NCBI GenBank assembly: GCA_012839355.1
Contig: DUNK01000033.1
Location: 48,213-112,212 of the forward strand
Direction: 5' to 3'
Length of the DNA stretch: 64,000 nt
Origin: Acholeplasma sp.
Lineage (GTDB): Bacteria > Bacillota_I > Bacilli_A > Acholeplasmatales > UBA5453
The notes beneath the pieces are model-generated. The model saw only the letters and a program-made list of their open reading frames with translations. It was not told the origin of the DNA and did no database searches. Of the stretch, positions 51,824 to 63,869 are shown piece by piece (position 1 is the first letter of the stretch; each line of letters begins with the position of its first letter). The position numbers were made by a program, and so were the translations under genes.

Positions 51824-51874
51824 ATATTAAAGTAATTTAATAAATACCAATGTAAGTATTAATTGGTGAAGAAA

Positions 51875-53257
51875 ATGAAACGATTACTATTAGTATGGAT
51901 TTTAATAATATGTTTTAATGGTTTTTTAATATTGGCAACAGATGAAGATATCTTTGTTTGGGGCGAGTTTAATGTGAAGGTAGAACTTGGTGAAGATATA
52001 CAAGTAGTCTTAGCGAGAGTTAAGTCTAACATAAAATTAAAAGAGGGTTATGAAGACCCTGACTTTTTTGTGGAAAATAACTATGTTAATTACACAACTC
52101 AAAGTGTGATAAACACCAACAATGTAAGAACATATAGATTAGATCATAGAGCGGTCTCACCCAAATATAATAAAAAAGAAATTAGATCATACTACTTTCA
52201 TGTTGTAGATTTAACTGCACCAGAAGTTATATCCTCATCTAGTTTTAAAATTGCTTATGGCCAAGACGAACCAGACTATTTAATAGGTTTAGTAGTTAGT
52301 GATAACTATACACAAAAAGACCAAATAGAAATAATAGTTGATAGTAGCAATGTAGATTACAGCAGGATAGGAGTTTATGAAATTTTATATACGATAAGTG
52401 ATTGTTCTGGTAATAAGACTTTTCACACTGAAACCTTAGAAATTGTGGATTTAATTAAACCGACTATTACGAAATTAAAAGATTTAACTATTCAAGTTGG
52501 TGATGCTTTTTTAGTAGAAGAGTATTTTTTGATAGAAGATAATTATGATCCGAATCCAACAATTATTTATGAAATAATAGGTGGCACAAACGAGTTAGGA
52601 GATAAAGAAATTAATATAAGAGTTATCGATCAAAGCGGCAACGAAACTATTTATAATGATATGGTTACAATTGTTGATAATATACCGCCAACAATAACTT
52701 TAAGTAAAGATGTAGTTGAAGTTAATGTTAATGAAGAAATTGACTTATACTCGTTTGTAGAAGTTAGTGATAATTATGACGAAGTTACTTTAGATAATTT
52801 AGTAATAACAAATAATATTAATTATGCGTTGGTAGGTTCGTATGAAGTAATTTATACACTAACAGATAGTTCAGGTAATGAAAGTGTAGAGATATTAACT
52901 GTTGTAGTAAGGGACTTAATAAAACCAACTATTCATGCTAATGATATGGAAATAAATAAAGGTGAAGATGTTAACTTTTTAATGTATGCAAGGGTGACAG
53001 ATAATTTATCAGAACCAGGTGAGATTAGTTTAAAAATTATTTATAACGATGTGAATATCAATAAACCTGGGATATATTCAGTTACTTTTGAAGCAGTAGA
53101 TCAGTTTGGCAATCATGCATATAAAACAATTAATGTGACTGTTTTAGGTTCGACAGAAGAGCAGAAAATCTTTTATTTTCTCTTAGCTATAGGAGGCGCT
53201 ACATTAGTAGGTTTAACAACTATAATTGTTATTAAAAAAAGAAAAAAGGCTTATTAA
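51875..53257 (+). CDS. Surface protein with tandem bacterial Ig-like domains and C-terminal TM anchor
   Basis: Signal peptide; repeated G.Y.V.Y...D.SGN... units; C-terminal hydrophobic helix then KKRKKAY. Confidence 0.75.
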   Translation: MKRLLLVWILIICFNGFLILATDEDIFVWGEFNVKVELGEDIQVVLARVKSNIKLKEGYEDPDFFVENNYVNYTTQSVINTNNVRTYRLDHRAVSPKYNKKEIRSYYFHVVDLTAPEVISSSSFKIAYGQDEPDYLIGLVVSDNYTQKDQIEIIVDSSNVDYSRIGVYEILYTISDCSGNKTFHTETLEIVDLIKPTITKLKDLTIQVGDAFLVEEYFLIEDNYDPNPTIIYEIIGGTNELGDKEINIRVIDQSGNETIYNDMVTIVDNIPPTITLSKDVVEVNVNEEIDLYSFVEVSDNYDEVTLDNLVITNNINYALVGSYEVIYTLTDSSGNESVEILTVVVRDLIKPTIHANDMEINKGEDVNFLMYARVTDNLSEPGEISLKIIYNDVNINKPGIYSVTFEAVDQFGNHAYKTINVTVLGSTEEQKIFYFLLAIGGATLVGLTTIIVIKKRKKAY

Positions 53258-53288
53258 TTTATGTTATACTTATATAGAGGTGTTAACA

Positions 53289-56243
53289 TTGATAGGAGCT
53301 TTTGGTTTTTTAAGTGAATATAATCTTTTAAATAGCACTTACAAGTTAAAAGATATAATAAACGACGCGAAAAGCGAAGATTATCCGTTTAGCGCATTAA
53401 ATGACACAAATAACTTATACGGTTCATATAAGTTGTTTAAGCATGCTTTAACGCCTTATATCATTGGGATGAAATTAGATATTATCCATTTAGGTTATGA
53501 ATGTTCGGTTATTGCTTATGCGATGGATAAAGAAGGTTATCAAAACTTAAATATTTTATCTTCAACAATTCAGTTAGGAGAAACTAAAAGATTGGAACTT
53601 AATGATATATTACCTTTCCAAAAAGGCCTATATTTTATATCTTCTGGACACGAATCAAACATTGATAAAACAATCATCAATGATAATTTGAACGAGACTA
53701 GAAACATCTTAATTGACTATAAAGAAAAGCTAAATCATTTTTCAATTGGTTTAAGCCTTCAGAGTTATGTTCAAGAAAGAAAGGTAGCACCTAAGTTAAA
53801 GGAACTTGCTGATGAGTTTAAGATATTATTGGTGCCACTTAACTATATGGCATATAGAAAAGAAGACAAAGAAACATTTAATTTAATTATTAAAATTCAA
53901 AAAGAAGATAACGACTTTAGCGATTATGATTTTAGTTTTCAAACTTTAAAAGAATTAGAAAAAAGATATGCGTTATATCCTGAAGTCTTTAGTAATTTAA
54001 AAAGAATATATCCATTATTTAAGTTTCAATATGAGAAACCTAAGTTTAATTTACCTAAAGTAAAGGGTGTTAAAAACAGTAAAAATGCTTTAATCACTTT
54101 AACTAAAAAAGGATTAGAAAAGTATTTGAGAGAAGAAAGAATAAAAGATAAAATAGTTTATTATGAAAGATTAAAAAAAGAATTAACAGTTATTGATAGT
54201 TTAGGTTATAATGATTATTTTTTAATTGTTTGGGATTTTGTTAAATATGCGAAGGATAATGATATTTTAGTTGGGCCGGGTAGAGGTTCTGCTGCAGGCA
54301 GTTTAGTTAGTTTCGCATTAAATATCACCGATGTTGATCCGATTAAGTATGGTCTTTTATTTGAAAGATTTTTAAACAAAGAAAGAAAAACAATGCCTGA
54401 TATCGATATGGATTTTCCTGATGATAGAAGAGAAGAGGTTATTGAATATATTAAAAACAGATATGGATCAAATCGTGTTTTATCAATTAATACTTTTAGT
54501 AAGTTTTCAGATAAAAGTTCAATTCGTGATGTTTGCAGGGTAAAAGGATATTCACCCGATAGAACAAATCAAATCGTAAAAATCTTAACGGAGCAAAAAG
54601 AAAATTTGAGCACTGAATTAGCTGAGGTTAAAAGACTCGCAGAAGGTTTAGATGGTCTACCAAGACAGACCGGGACTCATGCTGCAGGAATTATACTGGC
54701 GGAAGAAGACTTAAGATATTATCTACCTTTACAACAAGGACCAACAATCTACCAAGCACAGTTTGAGCATGAAGATTTAGTTGATATGGGTCTTTTAAAG
54801 ATTGACCTTTTAGGAATTAGAAACTTAACAATTATTAAAAGAACATTAGAAATAATTAAAGAAAAAAGAAACATTGATATAAATATAAATAAATTATCGT
54901 TAAATGATAAAAAGACATATGAACTTTTATCTGCCGGTGACACTTTAGGAATATTTCAGTTAGAATCTCAAGGAATGAGAAATGTTTTAAGAAAATTAAA
55001 GCCGAACAAGTTTAATGACCTTGTAGCTCTTTTAGCGTTATATAGACCAGGGCCAATGGAAAACATCGATGTTTATATCAATAGAAGAAATGGTGAAAAG
55101 TTTAGTTATATTGATAATAGTTTAGCAAAAATCTTAAAAGAAACTTATGGCATTATTGTCTACCAGGAACAAATAATTTTAATTGCAGAAGAGTTTGCTG
55201 GTTATACTTTAAGTGAAGCAGATATGCTAAGAGTTGGAATATCTAAAAAAGATAAAAAGATTTTAAACGAAGAAAGAAAAATCTTTGTTGAAAAGAGTAT
55301 TAAAAATAATAGACCGAAAGAATTGGCTGAAAAGATTTATGATTATATTGTTAGATTTGCTGATTATGGATTTAATAAGTCACACTCGGTTGCTTATGCC
55401 TTAGTTGCTTATCAAATGGCATATTTAAAGGCTAATTATTATGATGTTTTTATGGCGGTGTTACTATCAAAAATGGTTAATGATACAAACATCTTTTATA
55501 GCATTAATGATTTAAGAAAACGGGGAATAATTGTTTATCCGCCAAACATCAATATTTCAACAGATGAATATTTAGTGGCAGAAAAAGGAATATATTATCC
55601 GCTTTTAGGCATTAAAGGTATTGGCACACAAATAGTTAAGAGAATAATTGAAGAAAGAGAAAAGAATGGTCTATTTAAAAACTATGATGATTTTAAATTA
55701 AGATTAAATGGTGTTTTAAGCGATAAAATGTTAGAAAACTTAATCTTTAGCGGAGCGCTGAATTGTTTTAAACTAACGAAACATCAAATGTATGAAGAAA
55801 GATCAGCTTCAACTATTTTATATGAAGATTTAATTGTTGATATAATAGAAAAAGTTTATGAAGAATATGATTTAGAATACTTAGCAGAAAAAGAAAAAGA
55901 AGCGCTTGGGTTTAATTTAGATGTAAGCCCATTAACGGACATAATAAAATATGAAAAAGAACATAAGCTCACAAGTATTAAAAACTTAACATTTAAAAAG
56001 AGTTCTGAAAGGGTAGTTGGACTAGTTAAAAGGGTTTCTGAAATTACAACTAAGTCAGGCGAGAAAATGGCTTTTATTACTATGACTGATTATTTGGGTG
56101 ATGTAGAAATTACTGTCTTTCCAGAAGTCTATGAAAAGCATAAAGAAATTTTAGTAGAAAACGAAAAAATTGTAGTAAATATTCAAAGTCAAAAATATGG
56201 TGGCGGCTCTTGGATATTAAAAGATGCGACAGTAATGCGATAA
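53289..56243 (+). CDS. dnaE: DNA polymerase III alpha subunit (DnaE)
   Basis: PDIDMDFPDDRREEVIEYI, GPGRGSAAGSLVSFALNITDVDP; TTG start at 53289 with GAGGTG SD. Confidence 0.93.
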   Translation: MIGAFGFLSEYNLLNSTYKLKDIINDAKSEDYPFSALNDTNNLYGSYKLFKHALTPYIIGMKLDIIHLGYECSVIAYAMDKEGYQNLNILSSTIQLGETKRLELNDILPFQKGLYFISSGHESNIDKTIINDNLNETRNILIDYKEKLNHFSIGLSLQSYVQERKVAPKLKELADEFKILLVPLNYMAYRKEDKETFNLIIKIQKEDNDFSDYDFSFQTLKELEKRYALYPEVFSNLKRIYPLFKFQYEKPKFNLPKVKGVKNSKNALITLTKKGLEKYLREERIKDKIVYYERLKKELTVIDSLGYNDYFLIVWDFVKYAKDNDILVGPGRGSAAGSLVSFALNITDVDPIKYGLLFERFLNKERKTMPDIDMDFPDDRREEVIEYIKNRYGSNRVLSINTFSKFSDKSSIRDVCRVKGYSPDRTNQIVKILTEQKENLSTELAEVKRLAEGLDGLPRQTGTHAAGIILAEEDLRYYLPLQQGPTIYQAQFEHEDLVDMGLLKIDLLGIRNLTIIKRTLEIIKEKRNIDININKLSLNDKKTYELLSAGDTLGIFQLESQGMRNVLRKLKPNKFNDLVALLALYRPGPMENIDVYINRRNGEKFSYIDNSLAKILKETYGIIVYQEQIILIAEEFAGYTLSEADMLRVGISKKDKKILNEERKIFVEKSIKNNRPKELAEKIYDYIVRFADYGFNKSHSVAYALVAYQMAYLKANYYDVFMAVLLSKMVNDTNIFYSINDLRKRGIIVYPPNINISTDEYLVAEKGIYYPLLGIKGIGTQIVKRIIEEREKNGLFKNYDDFKLRLNGVLSDKMLENLIFSGALNCFKLTKHQMYEERSASTILYEDLIVDIIEKVYEEYDLEYLAEKEKEALGFNLDVSPLTDIIKYEKEHKLTSIKNLTFKKSSERVVGLVKRVSEITTKSGEKMAFITMTDYLGDVEITVFPEVYEKHKEILVENEKIVVNIQSQKYGGGSWILKDATVMR

Positions 56244-56350: not shown

Positions 56351-56439
56351 GTTTTGTTACCCTAAAAATTTTTGCTATTTGAAAACTTGGATTAATTGGA
56401 TTTATACCGGCAATATGTTTTGTTACCCTAAAAATTTTT
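56351..56439 (+). CRISPR. One-spacer mini-array: full repeat, 30-bp spacer, truncated repeat
   Basis: Repeat GTTTTGTTACCCTAAAAATTTTTGCTATTTGAAAAC 56351-56386, spacer 56387-56416, 23-nt repeat 5' part at 56417-56439. Confidence 0.9.
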
Positions 56440-56443
56440 AGAT

Positions 56444-57838
56444 TTGCGTTTTGAAAAGGAAGTTCCTGAAACAAGAACATTAGAGGTAAATGCAAATATT
56501 GTTGAATGTAATGCATATATTATTCATTTTTCAAATAATGAAGTTTATAGCATTAGCAGCAAAAAGTTCTTTGAGTTAGGTGGCACATATACTGTCACAT
56601 TCAAGAATTTAGAATATGTCAAAATCAGTTATGACAACAAACATATGATTTATCATTATAAGACAGCTAAACTCTTATATACACTTGATATAGATCCTAA
56701 TGTTAGATACACTTTTGAACGATATACGATTACAGTTGAAGATCTTGTTGAGGGTGAATATGAACTTAGAAAGGTTTATCGTTTTGATGATTATGAACCA
56801 ATTGAAGAAGATTTAGAATTCAAACCAATTGATTTATCAAACTATCGAACAATTAAAGAATATGCTTATAAGACAGATACTGATGGTATTACAGTTTATA
56901 AAAACGGAAAGTTTTATGCGTACTATTATTATGAAGAAAATCATACAAGAACTTTCTATTTGCCAAACGGAAACATGTTGTTTTATCATGAAGAAGAATT
57001 AGATGCTGACGCAGAAGAGTATGATTTTAACGATGGATATGATAAATATAACTATTATTATTTACTATACGATCTAGCAGCTAAAAAGATTAAAAAGGTT
57101 GCATTACCAATTATTATTAACAATATAGTTCTATATGATGATGCGTTTGGTTTTATTAAAGTAGATGCAGGGCTTGATTTCAATGCGATTGATCCAAAGA
57201 CTAAAATGCTTACGCGCGATAGAATAGGTTCAATCAATAATGATTTAAAAATTAAGGAAATCAATTTTGAGTTTGGTGAAATGGATGACTTCTATGCATA
57301 TCATAATAATCGTTTCTTAATCATAAGTAGAGAAGCAGGCGCTTTCTTAGTTGATGGTAAAAACAATAAAATAATTAGTTCATTTGAATATGATAAGTAT
57401 CTTCAATTGACACCATTACCAGGCGAAACAGTTGCACTATATGATGATTATAATGAAAAAATACACATCTATAGTTTAGAAACTGGCAAATCTATTCATA
57501 GTGAATATGACTTATTAGGTATTATTGACACTAATATTTTACTACTTGAAAAAGATGATAAGTATTATCGTTATGATGGAAGTTTACATTTATTAGATGG
57601 AAAGCCAATTGTATTAGAATATGGAAATGTTCCAATGTATATTATTGAAAGAGATGATGGATATGATTATTATATGTCTAATGGAGTAAAACTTTTCAAA
57701 GCGGCAGATGCTAATGCACTTGTTAAAAGAGACTATATCTTTGAAGATATGAAAACATTCTATATATTCTCATATACAGTTGATGGAGTAATTAAACATT
57801 GTATAGTTGAACGTAGCCAATTTCTTATGGTTATGTAA
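56444..57838 (+). CDS. Uncharacterised 464-aa protein (possible 5'-truncated gene) lying between truncated CRISPR repeats
   Basis: Single long ORF from 56432; only a TTG start with no SD; TAA ends 1 nt before the next repeat fragment; rich in Y/D/E, beta-strand-like pattern. Confidence 0.6.
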   Translation: MRFEKEVPETRTLEVNANIVECNAYIIHFSNNEVYSISSKKFFELGGTYTVTFKNLEYVKISYDNKHMIYHYKTAKLLYTLDIDPNVRYTFERYTITVEDLVEGEYELRKVYRFDDYEPIEEDLEFKPIDLSNYRTIKEYAYKTDTDGITVYKNGKFYAYYYYEENHTRTFYLPNGNMLFYHEEELDADAEEYDFNDGYDKYNYYYLLYDLAAKKIKKVALPIIINNIVLYDDAFGFIKVDAGLDFNAIDPKTKMLTRDRIGSINNDLKIKEINFEFGEMDDFYAYHNNRFLIISREAGAFLVDGKNNKIISSFEYDKYLQLTPLPGETVALYDDYNEKIHIYSLETGKSIHSEYDLLGIIDTNILLLEKDDKYYRYDGSLHLLDGKPIVLEYGNVPMYIIERDDGYDYYMSNGVKLFKAADANALVKRDYIFEDMKTFYIFSYTVDGVIKHCIVERSQFLMVM

Positions 57839-57839
57839 G

Positions 57840-57863
57840 GTTTTGTTACCCTAAAAATTTTTG
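57840..57863 (+). repeat. Isolated truncated CRISPR repeat
   Basis: GTTTTGTTACCCTAAAAATTTTTG identical to first 24 nt of the 36-nt repeat. Confidence 0.92.
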
Positions 57864-57966
57864 ATACAATAGTGATTTAAATAGAGTTTAATAAGAAATA
57901 AAAAAGCGGCAATTCAAAAAAGGGCTATTTTATGGTAGAATAAGATAAATGCGAGGTGAAAAATAA

Positions 57967-60900
57967 ATGAACAAGAAAATTTTGGGTGTTGATATTGGAG
58001 TTGCCTCTGTTGGTTGGGGAATTATTGACCAAGATAATAATGTTGTTGCCACAGGGGTAAGGCTGTTTCAAGAGGCTGATAATAGTTCCAATGAAGAAAG
58101 ACGCAATTTTAGAGGAAATAGAAGGTTAAAATCAAGACGAAAAATTAGAATAAAAGATATGCGCGATTTATTAGTAGAATATAACATCATCGGTAAAGAT
58201 GAGGATGTTAGTTCTATTAATCCGTATGAAGCACGATATAAGGGCTTAACGCAAAAACTAACTAACAAAGAGTTAGCTTCTGCGCTTTTACATATTGCCA
58301 AGAGACGCGGTTCAAGCTTGGAAGTAGCTGAAGAAGAATCAACAAACAAGGATGTTAGTCCAAAAAAGATTTTGGCAGATAACAAATTAGAATTAATGGA
58401 TAAGTATGTTGTTGAAGTCCAGTTAGAAAGATTAGAAAAAGGAAAAATAAGAAATCAAAAAAACATTTTTAAAACAGAAGATTATGTTAAAGAAGTTAAA
58501 CAAATATTTAAAAATCAAAATTTATCTGAACCATTTAAAGAAGAAGCAATTGCAATAATTGAAAGAAGAAGACACTTTTCAGAAGGGCCAGGTTCAGAAA
58601 AAAGTCCGACGCCTTACGGAAGATGGAGAGTTATTGAAGAAGATTTAAAAAATAAAATTGTTAAAAACTTTTCTAAAGAAGAAAAGAATAATTTTGGAGC
58701 AAAGAAGTTTGTAACAAATTATGATGATGTTTCATATGTTGTATTAAAAAACAAAACGATAATTAATAAAAAGCCATTAAACTTAATTGATTTAATGAGG
58801 GGCAAATGTAGTGTTTATAGTGATGAATTAAGGGCGCCCAAAAATAGTTATTCTGCACTAATTTATAATCTATTAGATGAAATAAATAATATGACCATTG
58901 TAAGTAGAGAAAATGGTAAGTTTACAAAAGAAGAAAAGGAAAAAGCAATTCAAGTTATAAAAGAGAATGGAAGATTTAAACCAAATAACATAGATGGGTT
59001 TTTAAAATTATTTGATTTAACAATTGAAGATATAGTGGGTTATCGAATTAATGCTAATGAAAAACCGATAATAACAGAATTTAAAACATTTAAAGAGTTA
59101 TTAGATATATTTAAAGATGAAGGTGTTGAACTTACAGAACAAAAAGCAGATAGCATTGCTGATATTTTAACTAAAACTCAAGTTGTTGAAGAAAGAAAAG
59201 ATGAAGTGGTTAAAATAGTAAACAATGAAAATTTAGCATTAAAGATTGCTAATTTAAAAGGTTACAATGGATATCATGCTTTTTCATTTAAAGCACTTAA
59301 ATTATTAAAAGAAGAACTATTGAATACAAATTTAAATCAACAGCAAATTTTATCTGCTCAATCTCTTCGAGAAGAAAAACCAATAACAAAATTAATTTTA
59401 GATGAAACATTAATTCTTTCTGCTGTGGCTAGAAGAGCTCATAGAGAAGCATTAAAAGTTATAAACGAACTTATTGGAGAGTTTGGTAATTTTGATAGAA
59501 TAGTTATTGAAACAACAAGAGAGAAAAACTCTAAGGAAGCAACAGCAAGACACACGAAAAATCAAAAACGTTTCATAGAACAAAAAACTGAGGCAATAGA
59601 ATTATTAAAAGAGGCGGGTTTTTCAGATAATGATTATTCCAATCAAACAGCACTTAAAGTTAGATTGTATAACGAGCAAAATGGTAAATGTGCATATTCT
59701 GGGATGCCGCTTGAACTTGTAAAAGTTGTAACAGATCCCAAAGCATATGAAATAGATCATATTATTCCTAGAAGTATTTCACAAGATAATAGTTTAAATA
59801 ATAAAGTGTTAGTTTTACATGAAGTTAATCAAGCAAAAGGCAATAGAACGCCATTTCAATATTTTAGCAGTGGACTAGCAAAAAAGAGTTATCCAATAAA
59901 CAATTATAATGCGTTTAAAGAATATGTGAATGGAAATGTCAATTATCAAAAAAATGCATTTAAGAGAAGAAATCTTTTAAATGAAGAAGACATAACAAAA
60001 TATGATGTACTAAGAGAATTTTCAAATAGAAATTTAATAGATACAAGTTATGCTGCGCGAAGTTTAATGACGACTATTAAAAATTATTTTAAAGCAAATA
60101 ACATAGAAACGACTGTTCTAACTATTAGAGGTAAACAAACGGATATGTTTAGAGGAATCGCAAGAGGTTTGTGGAATCAAGAACATCGCCATATCAGCCC
60201 AGAGTTTAATCCGTTTAATAAAGATAGAAATTACTATAATCATCACGCTTTAGATGCGTTAATTATTGCTGGACTTAGCAACCAAAAGACATTAAAGTAT
60301 TTATTTGATTTAGAAACAACAAAAAAAGAAACTTATGTGACAAAAAAAGATACTGGTGAAGTGTTTGACCTTGACCCGGCAGAAGATTCTTCACTGCTTA
60401 AGTTTTTAAAGAATGTTGGTAATTTAGATGATAAAGATATAAGATTTTCTTGGAAGGTAGATAAAAAGATAAACCGAAGTTTTTCAAACCAAACAATCTA
60501 TTCAACTAGAAAGTATGATAACGACGAGTATTTAATCCAAACACATAAAAACATCTATGAAATGAAACAAGAAGATTTAAGTAAGATTTTCGAAGATGAA
60601 AAAGAGAGTGAAAAACTTTTAATTTATCAACACGACCGAGGCACTTTTGATTTAATTAAAAAGGCATATTTACAATACAAACACGAAAAGTTTCCTTTAA
60701 AAGCCTATATGGAACAGCATGGTAAAATTAAGAAAAATGGTGTTGGTCCTTATGTGACAAATTTAAAATATCGCAAAGAAAAACTTGGTAATCATATTGA
60801 TATTACAAAATCAACAACCAAAAATAAAAAAGAAGTCTTACTACAAATTCGTCCTTATAGAACAGATATATATAAAGATTCTAATGATAATTATAAATTT

Positions 60901-61260
60901 GTAACAATTAGATATGCCGACTTTTCAAGTGATGCAAAAGGATATTATATTGATAAGAATTTATATGCTGAAAAACTTCAACAAAAAGGTATAAGTGAAA
61001 ACTTTAAATTTACTAATAGTTTCCACACAAATGAAATAATTGCATTTAAGCAAAAAGATGAAGAATTTGGTTATTATAGGTTTGTAGGAACTAATAACGA
61101 TGTAACAAATAAAATAGAAATTAAATCAATCAATAAAAAAGATAACAAACGAAACACGCCAGCTATAGGGAAAAAAATTGAAAAAATTTATAAATATGCT
61201 GTATCACCTGCGGGAAGAATTAAACGAGTTGAAAACGAAAGATTGACATTAGTAAGATAA
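57967..61260 (+). CDS. cas9: CRISPR-associated endonuclease Cas9, 1097 aa, SaCas9-like clade
   Basis: RuvC-I KILGVDIGVASVGWGI; bridge helix RRNFRGNRRLKSRRKIRI; RuvC-II IVIETTRE; HNH YEIDHIIPRSISQDNSLNNKVLV; RuvC-III YYNHHALDALIIAG. Confidence 0.98.
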   Translation: MNKKILGVDIGVASVGWGIIDQDNNVVATGVRLFQEADNSSNEERRNFRGNRRLKSRRKIRIKDMRDLLVEYNIIGKDEDVSSINPYEARYKGLTQKLTNKELASALLHIAKRRGSSLEVAEEESTNKDVSPKKILADNKLELMDKYVVEVQLERLEKGKIRNQKNIFKTEDYVKEVKQIFKNQNLSEPFKEEAIAIIERRRHFSEGPGSEKSPTPYGRWRVIEEDLKNKIVKNFSKEEKNNFGAKKFVTNYDDVSYVVLKNKTIINKKPLNLIDLMRGKCSVYSDELRAPKNSYSALIYNLLDEINNMTIVSRENGKFTKEEKEKAIQVIKENGRFKPNNIDGFLKLFDLTIEDIVGYRINANEKPIITEFKTFKELLDIFKDEGVELTEQKADSIADILTKTQVVEERKDEVVKIVNNENLALKIANLKGYNGYHAFSFKALKLLKEELLNTNLNQQQILSAQSLREEKPITKLILDETLILSAVARRAHREALKVINELIGEFGNFDRIVIETTREKNSKEATARHTKNQKRFIEQKTEAIELLKEAGFSDNDYSNQTALKVRLYNEQNGKCAYSGMPLELVKVVTDPKAYEIDHIIPRSISQDNSLNNKVLVLHEVNQAKGNRTPFQYFSSGLAKKSYPINNYNAFKEYVNGNVNYQKNAFKRRNLLNEEDITKYDVLREFSNRNLIDTSYAARSLMTTIKNYFKANNIETTVLTIRGKQTDMFRGIARGLWNQEHRHISPEFNPFNKDRNYYNHHALDALIIAGLSNQKTLKYLFDLETTKKETYVTKKDTGEVFDLDPAEDSSLLKFLKNVGNLDDKDIRFSWKVDKKINRSFSNQTIYSTRKYDNDEYLIQTHKNIYEMKQEDLSKIFEDEKESEKLLIYQHDRGTFDLIKKAYLQYKHEKFPLKAYMEQHGKIKKNGVGPYVTNLKYRKEKLGNHIDITKSTTKNKKEVLLQIRPYRTDIYKDSNDNYKFVTIRYADFSSDAKGYYIDKNLYAEKLQQKGISENFKFTNSFHTNEIIAFKQKDEEFGYYRFVGTNNDVTNKIEIKSINKKDNKRNTPAIGKKIEKIYKYAVSPAGRIKRVENERLTLVR

Positions 61261-61277: not shown

Positions 61278-61378
61278 GTATCCAATAAAGGATACTCAAA
61301 TAGCAAAGGTTTTTAGGACCTAACAAAACAAGGGATTATTCCCGAAATCGAGCCCGCATTATTGCGGGTTCTTTCTTT
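61278..61378 (+). ncRNA. tracrRNA
   Basis: Anti-repeat CAAATAGCAAAGGTTTTTAGGACCTAACAAAAC (61297-61329) pairs with the repeat; hairpin GGGATTATTCCC; terminator GAGCCCGCATTATTGCGGGTTC plus TTTCTTT. Confidence 0.9.
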
Positions 61379-61384
61379 ATGTAA

Positions 61385-62281
61385 ATGAGTTGGAGAGTAT
61401 TGTATATTGAGGAGTCGGATAAATTATCTTTATATTTAGATAACATAAAAGTTATTAAAAATGATGAGGAAATATTAGTACCGATTAAAGATATCCACTC
61501 CTTGATTGTAGACAACTATAAGATTTTATTGTCAGTTCATTTATTGAATGCATTATCTCACGCAAATGTAAATGTAGTTTTATGCGGAGTAGATCATTTG
61601 CCTCAAACGATATTCTTTCCTTTGTTTGGAAATAGTAATGCTGCAGCAAGTTTAAAGAAACAATTAAAATGGGATGGACTGAGAAAAAAGATATTACATC
61701 AAGAGATTGTTAGAAGAAAAATTAAACATCAAAAAGAGTTGTTAATGGCGGTAGATAAACATAATCCGGAAATTGAAATTTTATCAAAATATGAAAAAGA
61801 AGTGGAGTTAGGAGATGAAACTAATAGAGAAGGATTAGCAGCTAAACAATACTTTAAAGGCTTGTTTGGGGATGAGTTTAAAAGGTTTGAAAACGACATT
61901 ATTAACGCGGGGTTAAATTATGGATATGCTATTCTTCGTTCACAAATTAGTAAAACATTAGTTTCTAAAGGACTGAACACAACGATTGGAATATTTCATA
62001 AAAACCCTACCAACAACTTTAACCTTAGCGATGATATAATTGAACCATTTAGACCTATTATCGATTATTGGGTTTATAAAAATTTAATGGAAGAAGAGAT
62101 TTTTCTTAGAGATCATCGATTAGAGTTAATTAACCAAACAACTAAAGATGTATATTTTAAAAACACGAGACAAACAATCTTTAACGCAATATCTATGTAT
62201 GTTGATTCGATATTAACATTTTTAGATACTGGAGATGTAGATAAATTATTCCATCCAGAAATCAAATACGATGAGCTATAA
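61385..62281 (+). CDS. cas1: CRISPR-associated endonuclease Cas1 (type II)
   Basis: WRVLYIEESDKLSLYLDNIKVIKNDEEILVPIKDIHSLIVDN; order cas9-cas1-cas2. Confidence 0.95.
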   Translation: MSWRVLYIEESDKLSLYLDNIKVIKNDEEILVPIKDIHSLIVDNYKILLSVHLLNALSHANVNVVLCGVDHLPQTIFFPLFGNSNAAASLKKQLKWDGLRKKILHQEIVRRKIKHQKELLMAVDKHNPEIEILSKYEKEVELGDETNREGLAAKQYFKGLFGDEFKRFENDIINAGLNYGYAILRSQISKTLVSKGLNTTIGIFHKNPTNNFNLSDDIIEPFRPIIDYWVYKNLMEEEIFLRDHRLELINQTTKDVYFKNTRQTIFNAISMYVDSILTFLDTGDVDKLFHPEIKYDEL

Positions 62282-62594
62282 AATAATGCGACTAATGTTG
62301 TTTTTCGACTTGCCGGTTAAAACTAAGAAGGATAGAAGAGCGTATGCAAATTTTAGAAAAGATTTAATAAGAAAAGGTTATATGATGATTCAATACTCCG
62401 TTTACGTAAAAATATTTGCAAATAGAGATTCAGCAACCAACCACATTAAGATACTAAAAAGAGACTTGCCAAAAAAAGGACAAATAAGAATAATGTTAGT
62501 AACAGAAAAACAGTATGCAAAAATGGAAATAATATTAGGCGGAATTTCAATGCAAGAACAACATTTAACAAGTGAAGTTCTTACAGTGTTATAG
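62271..62594 (+). CDS. cas2: CRISPR-associated endoribonuclease Cas2
   Basis: RLMLFFDLPVKTKKDRRAYANFRKDLIRKGYMMIQYSVYVKI. Confidence 0.95.
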   Translation: MSYKIMRLMLFFDLPVKTKKDRRAYANFRKDLIRKGYMMIQYSVYVKIFANRDSATNHIKILKRDLPKKGQIRIMLVTEKQYAKMEIILGGISMQEQHLTSEVLTVL

Positions 62595-62603
62595 GAGGTC
62601 AGA

Positions 62604-63488
62604 TTGATAAATTTAAGCATACGAAATGGTAGTGAAAGAATTTCTTTTCCTTTAAGTACAGTAACATATTTTCATGGTAAAAATTACCCATTAAAGTATG
62701 AGTACATAAAGGTTATAAGGAAACATTTTAATAAAATAAATCATTCAGACTATGATTTAGAAAACAATACAACAACTAATATCTATATAGATAATGATGA
62801 AATTAATTTAAGAAATTGGAATTATTTTGAAATTGATACCAAATTTGATTTTGATTCACAATTTAAATTAAGATCAAAATCATTAATGCTTCAGTATTTA
62901 GAATCAGTATTGGTAAATATTGAATATGATGATACGGTATCAACAATTAATATTCTATTTGATGATTTAACAAAAGTTATTAATGAAAAAATTGAATTAG
63001 GGAACAGTGAGTTTTCCATTGATGCAAAACTAGAAGAACTAACATTAAAAAGTTTATTAAAACTTATTGAATTAAATATTATAAAAGAAGAATCTTTGGC
63101 AACAGAATATAATTTGACTTACACCGAATATGTTTTAACACAAATAAGACTAATAAAGAAAGTTGCTAAAACCAATGAATTAAAAAACAATTTAGTGCTT
63201 GTGCAACTTCCATATTATGATGAAACAATAATTGATGAATTAAAGTGCGATTTAGAAAACTTATATTTTATTGTTGTAAATGAAGATAATGAAATAGATG
63301 CTAAAAGAGAAGAAGTAATTTATTTTGGCAAACAAATTACTCCCTTATATGATGATGTGGAACTTTACAATAAAATAATGTTAGAACACGGCGTAATAAC
63401 AACATTAGAAGAATTAAATAGTGTGGTAAACGACTTTTTAAAAAATATTGACAATGAAATCACGAAAATTTTAAAAGAAAACTTATAG
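62604..63488 (+). CDS. csn2: Csn2-like type II-A adaptation protein
   Basis: 294-aa ORF (TTG start, GGAGGT SD) directly between cas2 and the array; N-terminus RNGSERISFPLSTVTYFHGKN.. compatible with Csn2. Confidence 0.65.
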   Translation: MINLSIRNGSERISFPLSTVTYFHGKNYPLKYEYIKVIRKHFNKINHSDYDLENNTTTNIYIDNDEINLRNWNYFEIDTKFDFDSQFKLRSKSLMLQYLESVLVNIEYDDTVSTINILFDDLTKVINEKIELGNSEFSIDAKLEELTLKSLLKLIELNIIKEESLATEYNLTYTEYVLTQIRLIKKVAKTNELKNNLVLVQLPYYDETIIDELKCDLENLYFIVVNEDNEIDAKREEVIYFGKQITPLYDDVELYNKIMLEHGVITTLEELNSVVNDFLKNIDNEITKILKENL

Positions 63489-63510
63489 TATAGCGACAAA
63501 GTCAAAAATG

Positions 63511-63528
63511 TGCTATAATACTTTTGAG
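63511..63528 (+). promoter_or_regulatory. Array leader: extended -10 promoter TGCTATAAT and leader-end TTTTGAG
   Basis: TGCTATAAT at 63511-63519; CTTTTGAG abuts first repeat. Confidence 0.65.
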
Positions 63529-63869
63529 GTTTTGTTACCCTAAAAATTTTTGCTATTTGAAAACAAGATATTGTTATTATCGGTGCTGGTCGGTGTTTTG
63601 TTACCCTAAAAATTTTTGCTATTTGAAAACAAATAAACGAAATAAAACTTAAATATCAACGTTTTGTTACCCTAAAAATTTTTGCTATTTGAAAACTAGT
63701 GTTATATGGAACTTGCCACGAACATTGTTTTGTTACCCTAAAAATTTTTGCTATTTGAAAACAAGAAAGGGTGAGAAAATGAAAGATAAAAGGTTTTGTT
63801 ACCCTAAAAATTTTTGCTATTTGAAAACCGCTTGGGCAGAATATAAAAGATTACCAAGGTTTTGTTACC
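63529..63869 (+). CRISPR. Main array, forward arm: 5 full 36-bp repeats, 5 spacers of 30 bp, then an 11-nt repeat fragment
   Basis: Identical repeats at 63529, 63595, 63661, 63727, 63793; truncated repeat 63859-63869. Confidence 0.97.

Follow-up and report, generated by a model that had tools for sequence, protein, structure and literature searches.

We describe an arrangement upstream of cas9 in Acholeplasma sp., in which an open reading frame (ORF) of 464 codons lies between two incomplete CRISPR repeats. The arrangement is probably the scar of a rearrangement within a CRISPR-Cas locus of type II-A-like layout, the locus being itself inserted between the genes dnaE and pfp. The window, by which we mean the whole stretch of 64,000 nucleotides that was analysed, is part of contig C32 of a draft genome, and the features listed below all lie on its forward strand. 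According to our preferred reading, positions 56351-56439 would be the tail of an old array that has no leader, comprising one repeat, one spacer and a degenerate terminal repeat (Rt1), while positions 57840-57863 (Rt2) would be a second terminal-type repeat. Between the two would lie the body of a lipoprotein gene that has lost its first 34-50 codons or so, the front of the gene having been removed by recombination between the AAAAATTTTT tract of the repeat and a similar stretch of the gene. The order of these events is one that we infer, and the ORF, if this reading is correct, would not be expressed.

The remnant array begins with a complete 36-nt repeat, GTTTTGTTACCCTAAAAATTTTTGCTATTTGAAAAC, at 56351-56386, followed by a single 30-nt spacer, TTGGATTAATTGGATTTATACCGGCAATAT, at 56387-56416, which is unique in the genome and for which no target was found there. 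Rt1 (56417-56439) corresponds to nucleotides 1-23 of the repeat and Rt2 (57840-57863), which lies 103 bp upstream of cas9, to nucleotides 1-24. Rt1 follows the 30-nt spacer, whereas Rt2 starts 1 nt past the stop codon of the ORF and is preceded by the ORF itself, with no spacer-like interval. The coordinates that the initial annotation had given for the repeats, the spacer, the fragments, the ORF and its stop were all reproduced exactly. Within the draft genome the shared 23-mer is confined to the window's contig and to contig C29, with 34 copies in all, and its absence from the reversed control (0 copies) means that the match of the fragments to the repeat is not due to chance. On the 5' side the identity to the repeat is 23/24 for Rt1 and 24/24 for Rt2, falling on the 3' side to 2/12 and 3/12, respectively, and the sequences flanking the two differ from nucleotide 24-25 onward. 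Pairing with the anti-repeat has a predicted duplex energy of -37.4 kcal/mol for the full repeat, against -20.4 for Rt1 and -22.9 for Rt2; these values and the repeat alignment bear out the earlier observation that both fragments keep the 5' part that pairs with the tracrRNA and lose the 3' part.

There is no leader before position 56351, where alignment to the leader of the main array scores 24 against a shuffle mean of 26 and the TTTGAG anchor is missing, so that the repeat-spacer pair on the left is best regarded as the tail of a remnant array that lacks its head. A search for a trailer common to Rt1, Rt2 and the main terminal repeat gave a result no better than shuffles for Rt2 and a marginal one for Rt1 (27/300 shuffles), and an Rfam search returned nothing over threshold.

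The apparent truncation of Rt1 and Rt2 looks, on sequence comparison, like the ordinary wear of leader-distal terminal repeats in Acholeplasma sp. and its relatives. The terminal repeat of the main array, on contig C29, reads GTTTTGTTACCCTAAAAATTTTTG; it keeps nucleotides 1-24 and then diverges. The terminal repeat of the array in the congener G001 keeps nucleotides 1-27, and that of the array in G005 is eroded from about nucleotide 17. Among 126 type II-A arrays of Streptococcus agalactiae the terminal repeat has likewise degenerated chiefly toward the 3' end (PMC4466440), and array-finding software tolerates degeneracy in leader-distal repeats (PMC4869251). That both fragments stop at nucleotides 23-24 would follow if terminal repeats are constrained only in their tracrRNA-pairing half, and this half ends in an A/T tract. 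A small array in another genome (G008; contig C38, L058:1501-1660) contains two repeats related to the Acholeplasma sp. repeat and a third that is badly degraded, and no related Cas9 was found in that genome.

The ORF between the fragments (56432-57838) is a 5'-truncated gene, probably for a beta-propeller-like lipoprotein, which has no signal peptide, no lipobox and no start codon with a Shine-Dalgarno (SD) sequence. Its frame is open from 56432, the first TTG is at 56444 and the stop is at 57836-57838; as had been noticed at the outset, there is no SD and no nearby ATG. The frame is intact over all 464 codons and the codon usage is native, like that of the neighbouring genes (GC3 0.187), which together suggest either that the truncation is recent or that the body of the ORF is still under selection. 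Close homologs within the order were found in 2 of 161 genomes, and a profile search across the class adds three more (G405, G197 and G322), from another family; a search of 85,462 GTDB genomes recovered just the first two, the Acholeplasmataceae MAGs G005 and G015, in which the identity to the ORF is about 35%. Every homolog with a readable 5' end, namely those of G005, G197, G405, G322 and, when read across a stop, G015, carries a lipoprotein signal and lipobox. The relatives extend the protein N-terminally by about 34-50 residues, the window copy beginning at approximately position 34 of the G005 protein, and it is this additional N-terminus, with its signal peptide and lipobox, that identifies the ORF as 5'-truncated. 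Full-length homologs had been proposed as the test of truncation, and their extra N-terminal region upholds the suggestion that the ORF is a captured 5'-truncated gene fragment or recombination scar.

Sequence searches of Pfam, NCBIfam, PHROGs and the PDB with the ORF were all negative, and no paralog was found elsewhere in the genome at E values up to 10. The structural model (mean pLDDT 67) is composed almost entirely of strands and matches WD40-type propellers locally, with low global TM-scores, and we tentatively assign the product a beta-propeller-like fold. The neighbourhoods of the relatives differ, those of G005 and G015 being among ribosomal-protein genes, and no CRISPR was noticed beside any of them in an unsystematic look. 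Two of the relatives are themselves interrupted close to the 5' end: that of G015 (L067:1936-2107) has an in-frame TGA, in a neighbourhood where the long genes have none, and that of G405 (L071:2850-3051, minus strand) has a shift at a T-run within the signal peptide. These breaks may reflect decay, phase variation or draft errors.

The left join between repeat and gene falls at AAATTTTT, a tract present in the repeat and probably also in the gene, making microhomology-mediated (illegitimate) recombination the likeliest cause. At this point the window reads AAA TTT (Lys-Phe); the G005 homolog has Lys-Phe in the alignment as well, that of G405 has Phe-Phe and that of G015, placed by hand across its stop codon, has Gln-Phe. 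Because the 5' end is resolved in few homologs, at an identity of about 35%, the case for microhomology depends on a single codon pair. The right join fits the scar less well: the position of Rt2, 1 nt after the stop and with no spacer before it, is unexplained by terminal-repeat status alone and counts against our reading. It may have arisen from two array tails arriving independently, from recombination between repeats or from a misjoin.

Judged from its gene content, the remainder of the locus is type II-A-like, with cas9, cas1 and cas2 in one operon, a csn2-like gene and the characteristic leader motif. A probable promoter, TTCAAA-17-TAGAAT (57913-57941), weakly common to G001 in alignment, precedes cas9 (57967-61260; TIGR01865, 3.9e-172), which is followed by the tracrRNA region (61297-61375), consisting of an anti-repeat at 61297-61329 and then a terminator hairpin, by cas1 (61385-62281; TIGR03639), by cas2 (62271-62594; TIGR01573) and by the csn2-like gene (62604-63488), which matches Cas_St_Csn2 with an E value of 1.1e-8, above the Pfam cut-off, and has no NCBIfam match. 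The leader end of the main array (63489-63528) resembles the G001 leader and ends in TTTTGAG beside the GTTT, where G005 has ATTTGAG; the main leaders of G000 and G001 align with a score of 109 against 29 for shuffles. In type II-A systems the leader end carries the motif ATTTGAG or a variant of it, and adaptation requires both this end of the leader and the first repeat (PMC5382924). The main array starts at 63529-63865 and probably continues on contig C29, which holds 24 copies of this repeat and the far end of an array, finishing with a terminal repeat adjoining pfp; the order of the genes supports the view that the two contigs hold parts of a single array. One AT-rich spacer of this array (c29_12) has weak matches of 22-23/30 in the window, which we judged to be due to chance, and the other main-array spacers have none there.

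To the left of the island is dnaE (53226-56243). In G001, G003 and G015 dnaE directly adjoins pfp, which is oppositely oriented and some 60-75 bp away, and in the Acholeplasma sp. genome pfp lies beyond the main array; the whole CRISPR-Cas island therefore occupies the dnaE-pfp gap, which is empty in these relatives. The cas genes of G001 are at another site, adjoining a zinc-transporter-like cluster. The initial annotation had suggested looking in relatives for the same bracketed ORF, or for an empty single-repeat site, upstream of cas9, and the corresponding regions of G001 and G005 contain neither the ORF nor any repeat or repeat fragment.

The principal rival to the scar is an error of assembly, in which the flanks have been wrongly joined through the 23-nt repeat and the true locus reads repeat, spacer, terminal repeat and cas9, or is a longer array that has collapsed. 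The draft is fragmented (41 contigs, 86% complete), the main array is split over C32 and C29, and at least one chimeric join exists at the locus: the end of the contig (63866-64000) is a fold-back palindrome in the array, with the last repeat-spacer units repeated in inverted order on the other side of a 16-nt centre, and it probably arose as a chimera in the library or the assembly. Against this, at both edges of the ORF unique sequence abuts a repeat of at least 23 nt, so that the short k-mers spanning these edges must be real and the doubt is confined to the spacer and the cas9 flank that go with them. The island also has dnaE to its left and pfp past the array to its right, in keeping with the dnaE-pfp order of the relatives, so that its placement is coherent, and on balance we regard a misjoin as unlikely.

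It is less probable still that the ORF was inserted together with a duplication of the terminal repeat, whether through homologous recombination involving a circle that carried the repeat or through aberrant action of Cas1-Cas2, the 'mega-spacer' of the initial annotation, which had also offered cargo bounded by direct repeats. The 23-nt direct repeats do flank the ORF exactly and both begin at nucleotide 1 of the repeat, but a product of Cas1-Cas2 is expected to show duplication of the full 36 nt at a leader, whereas here identity ends at nucleotide 23 and there is no leader. The insert, moreover, is 1.4 kb in length and contains no recombinase or transposase, and no phage or plasmid homolog of the ORF was found. 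With the repeats incomplete, their flanks divergent and the fragments matching ordinary terminal repeats, neither proposal is supported. We consider it very improbable that the interval is an excisable gene cassette, with CRISPR repeats at the border of the island serving as recombination sites that capture chromosomal genes and move them, and with the lipoprotein body still in use. Least credible of all is a regulatory role in which the left mini-array would act as a crRNA-like gene and direct Cas9 to the cas9 promoter: a degenerate repeat retaining its tracrRNA-pairing half does lie near cas9, but the 3' seed of the spacer matches the cas9 promoter over 4 nt, as do 385/500 shuffles, the tracr/cas1 region over 5 nt (164/500) and the leader over 6 nt (26/500), and the cas9 genes of G001 and G005 have no such repeat upstream. 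Lacking a leader, a recombinase, a phage or plasmid relative and a seed match to the cas9 promoter, a functional cassette is not supported.

Several features of the scar have counterparts in known systems. As in the terminal repeats of S. agalactiae CRISPR1, a type II-A array (PMC4466440), the tracrRNA-pairing 5' part is intact and the 3' part has diverged; unlike that array, two further terminal-type repeats exist here outside the main array, one of them with no normal spacer before it. Orphan or remnant leaderless arrays likewise consist of one repeat-spacer unit and a terminal repeat that are not beside an active leader, but they are found at distant loci, whereas the Acholeplasma sp. unit is in the cas9 island itself, upstream of that gene. 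The ORF can be compared with bacterial lipoproteins of predicted beta-propeller-like fold, its relatives having the signal peptide and lipobox and its model being rich in strands, although the window copy has no lipobox. No paper describing a gene-sized insert between CRISPR repeats was found in the literature covered, which was mainly open-access. Decay of terminal repeats combined with one rearrangement can thus mimic a cargo cassette bounded by repeats, and surveys for 'mega-spacers' should first compare such fragments with the terminal repeat of the array itself. The dnaE-pfp junction, in turn, offers a clear empty site with which to date the arrival of the CRISPR-Cas island in the family. 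The gene at 51863-53257, immediately upstream of dnaE, encodes a surface protein that contains repeated Ig-like domains and is anchored in the membrane by its C-terminus, and signal-bearing genes of similar size also precede dnaE in G002, G009 and G011.
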